A stretch of 64,000 nucleotides of DNA from Zophobihabitans entericus (lineage in GTDB: Bacteria; Pseudomonadota; Gammaproteobacteria; Enterobacterales; Orbaceae), in NCBI RefSeq assembly GCF_011745665.1, contig NZ_CP050253.1, positions 781,418 to 845,417 on the forward strand, read 5' to 3'. Below, one piece after another: positions 12,744 through 51,043 of this stretch. The translations under genes and the position numbers were made by a program. Under the pieces are notes generated by a model, which ran no database searches, had not been told where the DNA came from, and saw only the letters and a list, made by a program, of their open reading frames with translations. Every line of letters starts with the position of its first letter. Within the stretch, counting starts at the first letter, position 1.

Positions 12744-13493
12744 ATGAGTGTGGTATTAGTTACCGGTGCCTCTGCTGGTTTTGGTAAAGCGATCTGTCAA
12801 AAACTTATCGCTGATGGATTTTCTGTTATTGGCACAGCAAGACGACTTGATAAGTTACAAGAACTGCAAAAAGAGTTGGGGGATAAGTTCCTGCCCCTGC
12901 AATTAGACGTTACCGATTTGACCGCCATTGAGGCTTTACCTGGTAAAATCCCTCCGTCATTCCAACCGATTGATATTTTGATCAATAATGCCGGACTTGC
13001 ACTTGGCCTCGAACCTGCTAATGAGGTGCCTTTTCAGTATTGGGATACGATGGTACACACTAATATTTTAGGACTGATTAAATTAACCCATACTCTGTTA
13101 CCTGAGATGGTTAAACGTAATCATGGCTATATTATTAATCTGGGTTCAATCGCTGGTACTTATCCATATAAAGGTGGCAATGTGTATGGGGCAACCAAAG
13201 CCTTTGTACGTCAGTTCAGCTTAAATTTACGTACTGATTTACTGGGTAAAAAGATTCGTGTGACAAATATTGAGCCCGGTCTGTGTGGCGGAACAGAGTT
13301 TTCTAATGTACGTTTTGGTGATGATAAAAAAGCAGCAGAAGTCTATACTGGCGTTGATTTTGTCACTGCGGGTGATATTGCTAATACTATTTCCTGGTTA
13401 ATCAGTATGCCTGAACATTTTAATGTTAATAGTATTGAGATTATGCCAACAGCACAGGCTCCAGCGGGAATGAGTGTTGCTAAAAATATGTAG
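12744..13493 (+). CDS. ydfG: NADP-dependent 3-hydroxy acid dehydrogenase / short-chain reductase YdfG
   Basis: This 249-residue short-chain dehydrogenase closely resembles E. coli YdfG, which oxidises serine, allo-threonine and 3-hydroxy acids and reduces malonic semialdehyde. The cofactor motif is TGASAGFGKAI (residues 7-17) with a following Arg-Arg for NADP. NNAGLALG, the catalytic Ser in NLGSIAGTYPY, and Tyr-x3-Lys in VYGATKAFVRQFSLNLRTDL are all present. ATG 12744 is preferred over an in-frame TTG at 12720 because GGGAG lies at the right distance and the product then starts as the family does. Confidence 0.95.
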   Translation: MSVVLVTGASAGFGKAICQKLIADGFSVIGTARRLDKLQELQKELGDKFLPLQLDVTDLTAIEALPGKIPPSFQPIDILINNAGLALGLEPANEVPFQYWDTMVHTNILGLIKLTHTLLPEMVKRNHGYIINLGSIAGTYPYKGGNVYGATKAFVRQFSLNLRTDLLGKKIRVTNIEPGLCGGTEFSNVRFGDDKKAAEVYTGVDFVTAGDIANTISWLISMPEHFNVNSIEIMPTAQAPAGMSVAKNM

Positions 13494-13507
13494 TTTTCAT
13501 TGAGAAT

Positions 13508-13566
13508 ATGCAAATAAATCAATAATTTAAATATTTTCAACCCCTTGATTTATTTGCATTTTTTTT
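13508..13566 (+). terminator. intrinsic terminator after ydfG
   Basis: A perfect 15-bp stem (ATGCAAATAAATCAA at 13508-13522 with its complement at 13545-13559) is followed by eight T residues. The 22-nt loop is long, but stem and T-tract are strong. Confidence 0.8.
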
Positions 13567-13682
13567 AATGCTTATATCTTACTTTGTTGTAGCAAATTAC
13601 TCATTTTCCTAAAATTACACTTGCACTTATTTTTTAGCGTTGCTATTCTTTTCCACTCTATTTTTTATTGAGGTTATAACAG

Positions 13683-14012
13683 ATGACATTTACGCAAGCA
13701 GTGACCAATTTTGCTAAAAGCTTGCCGGGTACAGATTCTTATGTAAACCTGCGTAACGCCATGCAAACCCTTATTAAGGATGATTCAGCTAATGCGGCTG
13801 TTTATTTTCTTATCTTTGGTTTTGCCCGTACTTACGTCATGTTATATGAAGATCAGGAAGTGTCGCCTCAATTTGCTGAAGATAACCAAAAGCTCATGCT
13901 CAGTTATCTGAATACTTTAAATGCTGCGTTGCAAAAGAGTAATGCAGCCGAACTTTATCAGGCGATGAATGATGTCGTCGTGAAGTACGAAGAAAGCAAA
14001 AAAGTATTTTAA
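13683..14012 (+). CDS. small alpha-helical protein of unknown function (109 aa)
   Basis: I do not recognise this family. A GAGG ribosome-binding site 9 bases upstream of the ATG, an own terminator downstream and normal codon use support a real gene. The product is 109 residues, soluble-looking and mostly helical, with one hydrophobic stretch (AAVYFLIFGFARTYVML, about 39-55). That stretch could be a buried helix rather than a membrane segment because Arg lies in the middle. There is no signal peptide, no cysteine and no obvious catalytic motif. It lies between ydfG and the thr operon and is probably monocistronic. Confidence 0.75.
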   Translation: MTFTQAVTNFAKSLPGTDSYVNLRNAMQTLIKDDSANAAVYFLIFGFARTYVMLYEDQEVSPQFAEDNQKLMLSYLNTLNAALQKSNAAELYQAMNDVVVKYEESKKVF

Positions 14013-14018
14013 TATTTT

Positions 14019-14052
14019 ATCAGCCCGGCTTATGTCGGGCTGATTTGTTTTT
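14019..14052 (+). terminator. intrinsic terminator after the 109-aa ORF
   Basis: A 9-bp GC-rich stem ATCAGCCCG / CGGGCTGAT (14019-14027 and 14036-14044) with an 8-nt loop is followed by TTGTTTTT. Confidence 0.88.
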
Positions 14053-14115
14053 AGGTTCCATTATTTTTTAAGCTGTAAATAAAACCGTACGATGTAAATA
14101 ATTTAAGATATTTTA

Positions 14116-14144
14116 TTGACAAGCGGATTGTTTTACTTTAAAAC
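14116..14144 (+). promoter_or_regulatory. candidate sigma-70 promoter of the thr operon
   Basis: TTGACA at 14116-14121 is a consensus -35 element. After a 17-bp spacer comes TAAAAC (14139-14144) as a fair -10. Transcription would begin about 40 bp before the leader peptide. Confidence 0.6.
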
Positions 14145-14188
14145 CTTACAGAATGTAGTTATATAGAATTAACGAAGAAGCTAAATTA

Positions 14189-14260
14189 ATGATACTAAAT
14201 ATTGTTCTTGGCACCATTATTATTACCACCTCTGGGACCACCGGTAGCAGAGCGGGTTGA
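14189..14260 (+). CDS. thrL: thr operon leader peptide
   Basis: This 23-codon ORF encodes MILNIVLGTIIITTSGTTGSRAG, with five Thr and five Ile codons clustered in the middle, and ends directly before an attenuator. In E. coli ThrL the same two amino acids control the operon: ribosome stalling when charged tRNA-Thr or tRNA-Ile is scarce favours the antiterminator. The sequence differs from E. coli ThrL, so conservation is of composition and layout only. GAAGAAG-like purines precede the ATG at a suitable distance. Confidence 0.88.
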   Translation: MILNIVLGTIIITTSGTTGSRAG

Positions 14261-14312
14261 TATTGCTGTTAAAAGATCAATATAAAACCCGCTAAAATTG
14301 GCGGGTTTTTTT
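14230..14312 (+). terminator. threonine/isoleucine attenuator with alternative hairpins
   Basis: The terminator stem is AAACCCGC (14285-14292) with GCGGGTTT (14301-14308), followed by T residues. A competing antiterminator pairs AGCGGGTT plus GATATTG (14251-14265) with CAATAT plus AACCCGCT (14278-14293). A pause hairpin CTCTG / CAGAG (14230-14234 and 14248-14252) covers the last Thr codons of the leader. This is the standard three-way arrangement of amino-acid operon attenuation. Confidence 0.88.
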
Positions 14313-14369
14313 ATGTCTGAAGATTATTTATTTACTGTGACCATCAACAAACAAGAGAAAGGGTGCAAT

Positions 14370-47589: not shown

Positions 47590-49524
47590 ATGGTTCTGTT
47601 TCCTTATCAGCGATTAGCTTACTTATTTGATACGATTCGGGCTGAAGTTCTTCCGCAGGAGGAGTTGGCTAAGCGGTTTTCTGTGTCCACCCGTACGATT
47701 CGTACCGATATTTTAGCGCTAAGTGAGATCCTACAACGCTATGGTGCTCAGATTCAGTATGAGCGCGGTGTTGGTTATCAGTTAATCATTTCTGATGAAG
47801 CCTTATTTAAAACACTACCGCATCAACAAGAACAATTAAAAGTTATCCCAAGAACGAGTAAAGAGCGAGTGCTTGCTTTACTGGTTCACTTCTTAACTCA
47901 CCCTCAGTCGATTAAATTAGATGATATTGCCGATGAATGGTTTATCAGCCGCAGTACATTACAAGCGGATATGGCTGAGGTCAGAGAGTATTTAGAAAAA
48001 TATCATCTCTCTTTTGATAAGCGTCCTCATTATGGGATGAAACTACTTGGTGCTGAAACATCAATTCGTGCCTGTTTAACCGATATTTTCTGGCAGATGT
48101 ACTCAGCCGAAGATGAACGAGCGATCAGCCAGTTACAACAAGATGTGTTAAACGATATTGATTTAACTTTCCTTGAAAAAATTCTACAAAATCGTTTTGA
48201 ACGATTTGATATTAAAATCACACCGGAAGGCCAGCGTTATTTGCTTTATAGTTGTGCTATTTCAATTGTTCGTATTACTACCGGACAAGAGCTACTTGAA
48301 TTTGAAGCTAACGATGTTGATGAGGTGGTAAAGAAGGCTGCGATTGAAATTGCTGAAGGATTTACTTATTTCCTTGGTACAGAAGTTTCGCAAGCAGAGA
48401 GTAATTATTTAAGCGTGCAAATTGCGGCGCGCTGTATTACTGATCACTCTAATGTTATGAGTGGTATGCAGCAAAATAGCGATGTGCTTGTCAGCCATCT
48501 GCTGGATTATATTAACAGTACCTACAACTATGATTTACGCCGTGATGAAAAACTCAAAAGTGATCTCTCTATTCATTTAGCTTCTATGCTGGCGAGAATT
48601 AAGTATCAGATTCGCTCATCTAATCCACTGCTTGATGAAATTAAGCAGTACTATCCATTTGCCTATGATATTACGCTCTCAGCCATTACAAATACTGATT
48701 TGTATATCGACCACAAATTGAGTGAAGATGAGATTGGCTATTTAACAGTACATATCGGTGTGGCACTGGAACGTAATTATAATGTGGGTTATGAACGTCA
48801 TCCGCATGCACTATTGGTGAGCGATTCGGGTAATGCTACTTTACGTATGATAGAAGCCAAAATTAAACGTGATTTCCCGCAGATTCAAATTGTGAATACA
48901 CTATCACTGCGTGAATATGAGTTGTTGTCAACAATTGAAGAAGATTTTGTTATTACTACGGTAAGATTATCAGAAAAAAATAAACCGATTGTAAAAATTG
49001 CACCATTCCCGACACCTTATCAGTTAGAGCAATTAGGGCGTCTGGCGATGATCGATCGTACGCGTCCTTATATTTTAGAGAAATTCTTTAGTGAAAAATT
49101 CTTTATGGTATTAAAAGAAGAGACGACACAAGAAGAATTATTTAAAATGGTCAGTCAAAAACTGGCTGATGAAGAATATATTGATGAAGAGTTTTATCCG
49201 TCTCTGGTAGAGCGGGAATCAATCGTTCCAACAATGCTTGGTGAAGGCATTGCTATTCCACACACTGTTGGCTTATTAGCCAAAAAAACAACCGTTGTCA
49301 CAATACTTGCTCCTAAAGGTATTGCCTGGGGACATGATAAAAATGAGATGGCTTATGTCATTTTCTTACTTGCGATCTGCAAAGAGGAATATGAAGAAGC
49401 AATGGCAATTTATAGTCTGTTTGTTAACTTTGTAAAAGAGAAAGCGACCAAACGATTATTAAATAGCCAGTCATTTAATGATTTTCAGGCCATTGCGAAA
49501 GATAGTTTAGGGCGAATTGCTTAA
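47590..49524 (+). CDS. PRD-containing transcriptional regulator (HTH-HTH-PRD-PRD-EIIB-EIIA)
   Basis: The 644-residue protein has the MtlR/ManR-type architecture. A DeoR-like HTH (LPQEELAKRFSVSTRTIRTDI, about 21-41) comes first, then a second HTH (LDDIADEWFISRSTLQADM, about 117-135). PRD1 (about 200-290) and PRD2 (about 295-395) follow, with His in DLSIHLASMLARI and YLTVHIGVALER. Then come an EIIB-like domain (ALLVSDSGNATLRMIE) and a fructose-type EIIA domain with phospho-His in EGIAIPHT (about 550). The EIIB loop has Ser where an active cysteine would be expected. There is no CAT RNA-binding domain, so it should be a DNA-binding activator tuned by HPr/EII phosphorylation. It has its own terminator-separated unit directly after the operon it probably controls. 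Confidence 0.88.
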   Translation: MVLFPYQRLAYLFDTIRAEVLPQEELAKRFSVSTRTIRTDILALSEILQRYGAQIQYERGVGYQLIISDEALFKTLPHQQEQLKVIPRTSKERVLALLVHFLTHPQSIKLDDIADEWFISRSTLQADMAEVREYLEKYHLSFDKRPHYGMKLLGAETSIRACLTDIFWQMYSAEDERAISQLQQDVLNDIDLTFLEKILQNRFERFDIKITPEGQRYLLYSCAISIVRITTGQELLEFEANDVDEVVKKAAIEIAEGFTYFLGTEVSQAESNYLSVQIAARCITDHSNVMSGMQQNSDVLVSHLLDYINSTYNYDLRRDEKLKSDLSIHLASMLARIKYQIRSSNPLLDEIKQYYPFAYDITLSAITNTDLYIDHKLSEDEIGYLTVHIGVALERNYNVGYERHPHALLVSDSGNATLRMIEAKIKRDFPQIQIVNTLSLREYELLSTIEEDFVITTVRLSEKNKPIVKIAPFPTPYQLEQLGRLAMIDRTRPYILEKFFSEKFFMVLKEETTQEELFKMVSQKLADEEYIDEEFYPSLVERESIVPTMLGEGIAIPHTVGLLAKKTTVVTILAPKGIAWGHDKNEMAYVIFLLAICKEEYEEAMAIYSLFVNFVKEKATKRLLNSQSFNDFQAIAKDSLGRIA

Positions 49525-49549: not shown

Positions 49550-50143
49550 ATGAAAAAAAGAATACTATATTTAGCTGCCGTTATTTTTATTGCTATCGGC
49601 GTGATGTTTGCTCTGTTATCAGAGAAAGTTCAGTATGAGCCAGTAGGGCAACCAAATGCTCCAGTTATTGAGTCCGGTTCCACCCAACCAACGATTGATT
49701 CTGATGTTATTCCATCGCGATCGACTGGTACTTCTTCTCAGAGAAGTTCATCTCAGGTTTTGGTTCCTGGTGGGGGTTTATTGGTACATGAGCAAGCGGG
49801 TGGGCACCTGATTGAGCGCCATGTTGGTAGAACAGAGCAGGAGCTCAAAGAGCGTGTCAATTCTGATGGTGTGAGAACGGCCTCCAGTTTTTATGATTTA
49901 GTGACTGCAGAACAAGCGGTTAGCCAGGCGATTACTTATAATAAAGCCAGAATTGATAACTACCTGAAAAATAAACAAAGAGAATATTTAGCGATCAATT
50001 ATCGTTCGCCAACAGCGGTAGGTTATAGTTATTCCCGTGGTTGGCCATCCATCAAAGAAGTCTATGGTGTTAAAGTGATTATTGGGCAAGATAACAGAAT
50101 GCCTATTGGTTATAAAATTATTACCGGATATCCAGAGCAATGA
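49550..50143 (+). CDS. membrane-anchored or secreted RNase A-type toxin (CdiA-CT-like domain)
   Basis: The 197-residue protein has an N-terminal signal-anchor (KKR then hydrophobic residues 5-23, no lipobox) and a Ser/Pro/Thr-rich linker (about 30-72). The C-terminal domain (73-197) resembles the RNase A-fold toxin domain found at CdiA C-termini. Matching features are LLVHEQAGGHLIERHVGR, ELKERV, ASSFYDLVTAEQAV, IDNYLKN and the end VKVIIGQDNRMPIGYKIITGYP. By recall of the Yersinia kristensenii toxin (catalytic His, Arg 11 residues later, and Thr-x-Tyr near the end), His91, Arg102 and Thr192/Tyr194 are the likely active residues here. It overlaps the downstream immunity-like gene by four bases (ATGA). 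No CdiA or CdiB is nearby. Confidence 0.8.
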   Translation: MKKRILYLAAVIFIAIGVMFALLSEKVQYEPVGQPNAPVIESGSTQPTIDSDVIPSRSTGTSSQRSSSQVLVPGGGLLVHEQAGGHLIERHVGRTEQELKERVNSDGVRTASSFYDLVTAEQAVSQAITYNKARIDNYLKNKQREYLAINYRSPTAVGYSYSRGWPSIKEVYGVKVIIGQDNRMPIGYKIITGYPEQ

Positions 50144-50433
50144 GAAAACAATTCCCAGCACTAGCCTATTTTACTGAATGTTATCTGCATCAGGATTTTG
50201 ATTTACTCTTTGGTGGCTTTCCTGGTGTATTAGCGGCTTATCTTGACCAAGAGACATCAGAAGAACAGAAACAATTGATTCAGGATATTGAAGATATACT
50301 GACAAGTGATATGTCAGAAGTGGAACTGGAACATCTGTTTTTTGAAAAGTTTGATTGTAATTATGACTACCTACAACATTTTACAGATAGTCGGGCATGG
50401 CTAAGTTCCATTTTAGAGCAAATAAAGCCATAG
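50140..50433 (+). CDS. CdiI-like immunity protein for the RNase toxin
   Basis: This 97-residue acidic cytosolic protein starts inside the toxin stop (ATGA overlap), the usual coupling of toxin and immunity genes. The N-terminal FPALAYFTECYLHQDFDLLFGGFPGVLAAYL resembles the CdiI_2 group of contact-dependent-inhibition immunity proteins (YLHQDWD-type motif). The remainder is helical and rich in Glu/Asp, suited to covering a basic RNase active site. Function is inferred from sequence pattern and position. Confidence 0.78.
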   Translation: MRKQFPALAYFTECYLHQDFDLLFGGFPGVLAAYLDQETSEEQKQLIQDIEDILTSDMSEVELEHLFFEKFDCNYDYLQHFTDSRAWLSSILEQIKP

Positions 50434-50486: not shown

Positions 50487-50523
50487 TTGACTAAATAGGT
50501 ATTTAAGGGTAATATGCGCGCCT
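50487..50523 (+). promoter_or_regulatory. strong sigma-70 promoter of yceD-rpmF with GC-rich discriminator
   Basis: TTGACT (50487-50492), a 17-bp spacer and TAATAT (50510-50515) form a near-consensus promoter. It is followed directly by GCGCGCC, a GC-rich discriminator typical of ppGpp/DksA-inhibited rRNA and ribosomal-protein promoters. The predicted start (about 50522) leaves only two or three bases before the yceD ATG. Confidence 0.75.
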
Positions 50524-50524
50524 T

Positions 50525-51043
50525 ATGCAAAATAGATTACCCTTAACAATTGACCCGGTCAAAACAGCGCAAAAACGGTTGGATTATGTAGGTATATATC
50601 CAAGAAATGTAGCTGTGCGCCTTATTGAGTCAGTTGCGAGTGTGGATAGTGATATCAAGGCAGAGATTTCATTTGCGATTGATTCACAAAAGTTATGTGG
50701 CATTCATATTAAAGCTGATGCAGAAGTGAGTCTGACGTGTCAGCGTTGTGGTAAGCCATTTAAACATACTATCCACATAAAGAATGATTTCAGTCCTGTG
50801 AAAACTGATGTACAGGCGGAAGCATTACCAGAGCGCTACGAGCCCGCTGAACTTAATGAGTTTGGTGAGATTGATTTAGTGGCAATGATTGAAGACGAAA
50901 TGATTCTGTCATTACCAATAGCGCCGGTTCATGATATAAAACACTGTGAAGTGTCAGAAGCGGACATGGTGTTTGGTGAAATTCCTGAAGAGGAAGCAAA
51001 ACCAAATCCCTTTGCCGTATTAGCAAGTTTAAAGAACAAGTAA
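50525..51043 (+). CDS. yceD: 23S rRNA accumulation protein YceD (DUF177)
   Basis: YceD is needed for normal 23S rRNA levels and is nearly always encoded before rpmF. The 172-residue product (E. coli 173) has a CxxC pair in [10 protein letters not shown] (about 73-76) and the strongly conserved [34 protein letters not shown] and [10 protein letters not shown] ending. The family start [22 protein letters not shown] fixes ATG 50525. This start has no Shine-Dalgarno because the promoter lies directly before it. Confidence 0.95.

Follow-up and report, generated by a model that had tools for sequence, protein, structure and literature searches.

Polymorphic toxins are usually viewed as exchangeable tips of large delivery proteins. 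What, then, is such a toxin domain doing in a protein of only 197 residues that carries a membrane segment of its own and is followed directly by its antidote gene? The pair that raises this question lies in the window, by which we mean the whole 64,000-nucleotide stretch of the Zophobihabitans entericus genome (2.67 Mb, 91.7% complete) that was analysed.

The toxin, its antidote and the membrane segment

The features of the locus are collected in Table 1. The sequence-only reading from which we started had the coordinates and frames of both genes and their ATGA overlap exactly right, and its assignment of the two proteins to an RNase A-type toxin and a CdiI-like immunity protein holds. PF18431 matches the toxin at residues 85–195 (E 2.1e-28; 99.8 bits against a cut-off of 27) and is covered over its full length (profile positions 1–113 of 113), while PF18593 (CdiI_2) matches the 97-aa protein at residues 4–94 (E 5e-18; 66.1 bits against a cut-off of 26.7). 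In the PDB, both proteins find the same structure, the CdiA-CT/CdiI complex of Yersinia kristensenii (5E3E), the toxin through chain B (E 2.2e-32) and the antidote through chain A (E 8.4e-18). According to a review of 5E3E, the active site of CdiA-CT Ykris consists of His175, Arg186, Thr276 and Tyr278 (PMC9086364). All four are in register in the window toxin, as His91, Arg102, Thr192 and Tyr194, which are the residues that the sequence-only reading had pointed out.

Structure prediction agrees. In an AlphaFold model built from the window toxin and fifteen relatives, a helix spans residues 2–24, pLDDT falls below 50 in the linker (residues 41–66), and the domain is well predicted (residues 77–196). 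Foldseek aligns the modelled domain with 5E3E chain B at E 9e-14, with a TM score of 0.95 by target length and an rmsd of 1.3 Å. By sequence and model, the toxin domain is confirmed as a bacterial RNase A type with an intact active site, and sequence likewise confirms the 97-aa protein as a member of the CdiI_2 immunity family.

Table 1. Features of the toxin–antidote locus, in window coordinates.
Feature	Position	Strand	Basis
Transcriptional regulator, ending 25 bases upstream of the toxin gene	47590..49524	+	ORF list
Toxin gene, 197 aa: anchor, linker and bacterial RNase A domain	49550..50143	+	ORF, profile and structure matches
Residues 1–24: hydrophobic helix behind KKR, predicted to be a membrane anchor or a signal that stays uncleaved	49550..49621	+	Hydropathy, no lipobox, modelled helix 2–24
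Residues 25–76: low-complexity Pro/Ser/Thr/Gly/Gln linker	49622..49777	+	Low pLDDT through residue ~66
Residues 77–197: RNase A-type domain (PF18431)	49778..50140	+	Pfam; Foldseek on 5e3e_B
His91 codon, equivalent of CdiA-CT Ykris His175	49820..49822	+	5E3E alignment; invariant in 14-row alignment
Arg102 codon, equivalent of CdiA-CT Ykris Arg186	49853..49855	+	5E3E alignment and 14-row alignment
Thr192-Gly-Tyr194, equivalents of CdiA-CT Ykris Thr276 and Tyr278	50123..50131	+	Same alignments
Immunity gene, 97 aa, CdiI_2 family	50140..50433	+	Pfam and PDB; ATGA overlap with toxin at 50140
Likely yceD promoter, TTGACT-17-TAATAT	50487..50515	+	Similar sequence conserved in relatives, whether or not they have the pair
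yceD-type gene, right border of the site	50525..51043	+	ORF and gene order in relatives

What distinguishes this toxin from the tip of a CdiA protein is its N-terminal part. Behind a KKR start, residues 5–23 reach a mean Kyte–Doolittle hydropathy of 2.87; the toxin N-terminus has no lipobox and, judged by eye, no obvious signal-peptidase site. We call this segment an anchor on the strength of its hydropathy and the model. A 50-residue linker follows (residues 27–76, 64% Pro/Ser/Thr/Gly/Gln/Asn), ending in a VPGGGLLVHE-type pre-toxin motif that runs on into the domain, and this VPGGGL..HE lead-in is common to the window toxin and its CdiA-CT relatives. The 197 residues contain neither a TPS domain nor VENN. 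In the antidote we saw no hydrophobic helix, nor, by eye, a signal sequence. The proposal that the toxin is compact, stands alone and brings its own membrane segment is borne out, and the form recurs in relatives. The accompanying proposal of export by an unrecognised route is unsupported, since a Sec-type signal or anchor suffices to explain export; no delivery gene was found in the neighbourhood of the toxin. Nor did we find anything pointing to a role in defence, which had been offered as another possibility.

The same genome holds a CDI locus at 2256000–2272000, with CdiB, a CdiC-like acyltransferase and a 2237-aa CdiA with VENN; no TPS protein was found in the genome other than the one at 2.26 Mb. 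After this CdiA comes a displaced cdiA 3' fragment (12773–14347 of the locus) with an ATENN motif and no anchor. We considered assigning the window pair to CDI proper (CdiB/CdiA/CdiI) and found no TPS, VENN or adjacent cdiB. An orphan CdiA-CT was rejected as well: unlike the displaced fragment, the window toxin has no ENN motif and does have its own anchor. A T6SS cargo or effector was also rejected, as the sheath gene VipB had no match in the window genome (at its 91.7% completeness), though relatives have it, and no T6SS genes were recognised among the window ORFs.

One chromosomal site in two genera

The pair fills most of the gap between the regulator and yceD-(rpmF)-plsX-fabH. Among 44 genomes of the window's family, Orbaceae to judge by gene content and relatives, nine carry PF18431, and the stand-alone form was seen in only two of these: the window genome and one from a sister genus (G043). 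The sister pair encodes proteins of 173 and 106 aa, again with an ATGA overlap and with a hydrophobic stretch at the toxin N-terminus. It lies at the same junction, in the shared gene order of a sugar-type operon, the regulator and yceD-plsX-fabH; the operon comprises DUF4311/4310, amidohydrolase and DgaE/F-like genes. In 14 genomes of a third genus, regulator and yceD are 223–301 bases apart with nothing recognisable between them: these genomes have the site but lack the pair.

The two toxins are sisters in the tree (support 99/95), and a single clade points to one acquisition followed by vertical descent. Between the two genomes, identity is 50% for the toxin domain and 40% for the antidote, compared with 72–74% for the flanking genes. 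For the pair, dN is well below dS, with dS close to saturation. The much faster divergence of toxin and antidote than of their flanks would also fit an arms race between competitors. A recent foreign island was rejected, given the ordinary GC content and the site shared with the sister genus. We rejected prophage or plasmid cargo too: the toxin had no match in the phage records searched, and the plasmid matches are distant forms from Pantoea, Rhizobium, Methylobacterium and Streptomyces. Matches on viral contigs are likewise distant, of LXG/WXG, T6SS-type or MuF-like form (types named by eye).

Two further observations concern the family at large. Several relatives carry broken or truncated pieces of RNase A CdiA-CTs, some with internal stop codons, which suggests that toxin decay is frequent. 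In genome G040, a CdiI_2 gene (1480–1779 of locus L034, minus strand) sits amid CdiA remnants with no detectable RNase A partner and is likely an orphan immunity gene.

Anchored RNases in other lineages

The layout was looked for in other genomes and found in two lineages besides the sister genus. In one cyanobacterial genome, a 180-aa toxin with a signal peptide ending in AVSA (by eye) has a CdiI_2 partner. In a gammaproteobacterial genus, g61, an RNase A lipoprotein of 163–205 aa is followed by a partner of 93–106 aa, syntenic in 9 of 9 genomes, the ninth of which shows a lipobox only if a start further downstream is used (by eye); in that family, none of the 53 genomes outside the genus has a pair of this type. 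In the closest pair of g61 genomes, the RNase has a dN/dS of 0.06 and the partner one of 0.07. The partner is weakly CdiI_2-like (Pfam E 0.006–0.09; hhalign E 1.6e-4, probability 51). VipB had no match in the four g61 genomes searched. Across the whole genus, this partner of ~95 aa is seen to diverge fast beside its syntenic lipoprotein RNase A.

Elsewhere, the PF18431 domain occurs at CdiA C-termini, in an Rhs protein, in LXG/WXG-type proteins of viral-contig bins and in T6SS-linked proteins, for example between hcp and vgrG in Rhizobium. In the tree, the toxins of the window and its sister genus branch with CdiA-CTs of their own family and of Yersinia, and the lipoprotein clade stands apart. 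A tree holding every anchored form in one clade was rejected (p-AU 0.005), as was one uniting the window and sister toxins with the lipoproteins (p 0.008); a clade uniting them with the cyanobacterial form alone was borderline (p 0.048). Rejection of a single origin implies that the conversion of a CDI-type toxin into an anchored RNase standing on its own happened more than once. The anchored layout appears to have at least two and possibly three independent origins, in a tree with long branches. As the tree reads, the change would have run from CDI tip to simple toxin/antidote pair. Zhang et al. considered that simple barnase–barstar pairs may be an incipient toxin–immunity order (PMC3482391); for the window pair, the direction looks reversed.

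What the pair may do, and its known counterparts

We lean towards the view that the window pair is a tethered extracytoplasmic RNase with a cytosolic antidote, barnase/barstar-like in its arrangement and derived from a captured CDI cassette. What favours it is a site fixed in two genera and, in parallel, throughout g61, together with purifying selection and the absence of delivery parts. A carrier consisting of a single gene, with a membrane anchor of its own, would have captured a CDI-type cassette of RNase A domain and CdiI_2, and the result would then have become a fixed pair of chromosomal genes. The KKR and hydrophobic N-terminus would be inserted N-in/C-out by the Sec/YidC route, leaving the RNase on the periplasmic face at the end of a tether of roughly 50 residues. 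The antidote would stay in the cytosol and occlude the active site of non-exported toxin, as barstar does for barnase. Once exported, the enzyme could cut RNA that reaches the envelope, or the RNA of neighbours after being shed by proteolysis, vesicles or lysis.

The main rival is an interbacterial weapon, for which the anchor would be a temporary store: the toxin would be released into neighbours and the cytosolic CdiI_2 would protect kin. An antidote gene kept next to the toxin and the fast divergence of both are in keeping with this, most of the other PF18431 carriers encountered in our searches resemble CDI, Rhs, T7SS (LXG/WXG) or T6SS effectors, and SitA sets a precedent for exchangeable lipoprotein toxins (PMC5562445). 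However, the 197 residues hold no receptor-binding, entry or delivery domain, no delivery gene adjoins the pair, no T6SS sheath gene was found in the genome, and the site has kept the same toxin type across genera instead of swapping it. We regard a released weapon as rather unlikely. It is improbable that the toxin is an intracellular or stress-released RNase resembling a toxin–antitoxin system, its active form produced by cleavage or translated from a start inside the gene, and its target being the cell's own RNA. While the overlapping genes and an in-frame ATG at Met19, within the hydrophobic segment, could serve such a system, the sister genus has kept the hydrophobic N-terminus, the parallel lineages have a lipobox or signal peptide in its stead, and the toxin gene comes before the antidote gene.

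A role as the general RNase of the periplasm, in place of RNase I, would make sense of one family trait, in that none of the 44 genomes has an RNase T2/RNase I gene (PF00445; the E. coli control was positive). Yet most of those 44 are also without the pair, so that there is no trade-off between the two, and we consider this role very improbable. Broken RNase A pieces in Gilliamella-like relatives, and the position of the toxin near CdiA-CTs in the tree, raise the question of whether it could be a functionless piece of a CdiA-CT, displaced or in decay. Against this stand the intact active site, the toxin's own start and anchor, the lack of ENN, and the persistence of the pair in two genera, where dN is well under a dS near saturation; we give this explanation hardly any credence.

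Returning to the tethered RNase, it is tempting to speculate beyond the window. In several bacterial lineages, an RNase A toxin of contact killing may independently have become a fixed extracytoplasmic RNase, tethered to the membrane and matched by an inhibitor in the cytosol, its role now a resident one instead of that of a polymorphic weapon. They would then hold a bacterial counterpart of the secreted RNase A of vertebrates and its cytosolic ribonuclease inhibitor; we put this forward tentatively, as a possibility somewhat short of an even case. Here, the carrier of a toxin–antidote cassette is minimal and anchored, its chromosomal place is kept from one genus to the next, and the layout appears to have arisen more than once. 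A two-gene system of this kind makes the domestication of a weapon directly testable, and the RNase A-fold enzyme it would provide is small and tractable, with a predicted natural cytosolic inhibitor.

Among known systems, the Y. kristensenii CdiA-CT/CdiI pair (5E3E; PF18431/PF18593) shares the fold, the four active-site residues, the immunity family and the gene order with the window pair. That toxin forms the end of a giant CdiA for which CdiB is the exporter, whereas the window toxin is 197 aa long with its own anchor. The lipoprotein of g61 and its ~95-aa partner also combine an anchored stand-alone RNase A, a small downstream gene and a fixed site, but they differ in having a lipobox in place of the membrane helix, a separate branch in the tree, Phe for Tyr in T-x-Y and a weak CdiI_2 match. 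The NCBIfam entry NF041883, 'RNase A-like domain-containing lipoprotein', likewise describes short lipoproteins that carry an RNase A domain by itself; window toxin residues 83–197 match it, but the toxin is not a member (75.5 against a cut-off of 200) and has no lipobox.

If our inference holds, the pair is like barnase/barstar in joining an exported RNase to a cytosolic inhibitor (PMC8625414). Enzyme and inhibitor belong to other families by Pfam (the matches of the pair are RNAse_A_bac, CdiI_2 and a sub-cut-off DUF6384 only, with neither barnase nor barstar), and barnase is released, whereas the window toxin would be tethered. SitA/SitI of myxobacteria also pair an anchored toxin with an immunity gene, without a secretion machine; SitA, however, is a lipoprotein moved by TraA outer-membrane exchange and carries other nuclease domains (PMC5562445). 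Ribocin of Pseudomonas aeruginosa is an RNase of the RNase A fold that stands alone and has a signal peptide; it is reported to have no annotated domains and 15% identity to CdiA-CT Ykris, it acts on eukaryotic ribosomes, and the accessible part of the report mentions no immunity partner (PMC13189344). Among the papers searched by Pfam name, none dealt with the anchored form that stands alone. Its parts and a lipoprotein version are already known from NF041883, SitA and Ribocin, and the layout is not unprecedented.
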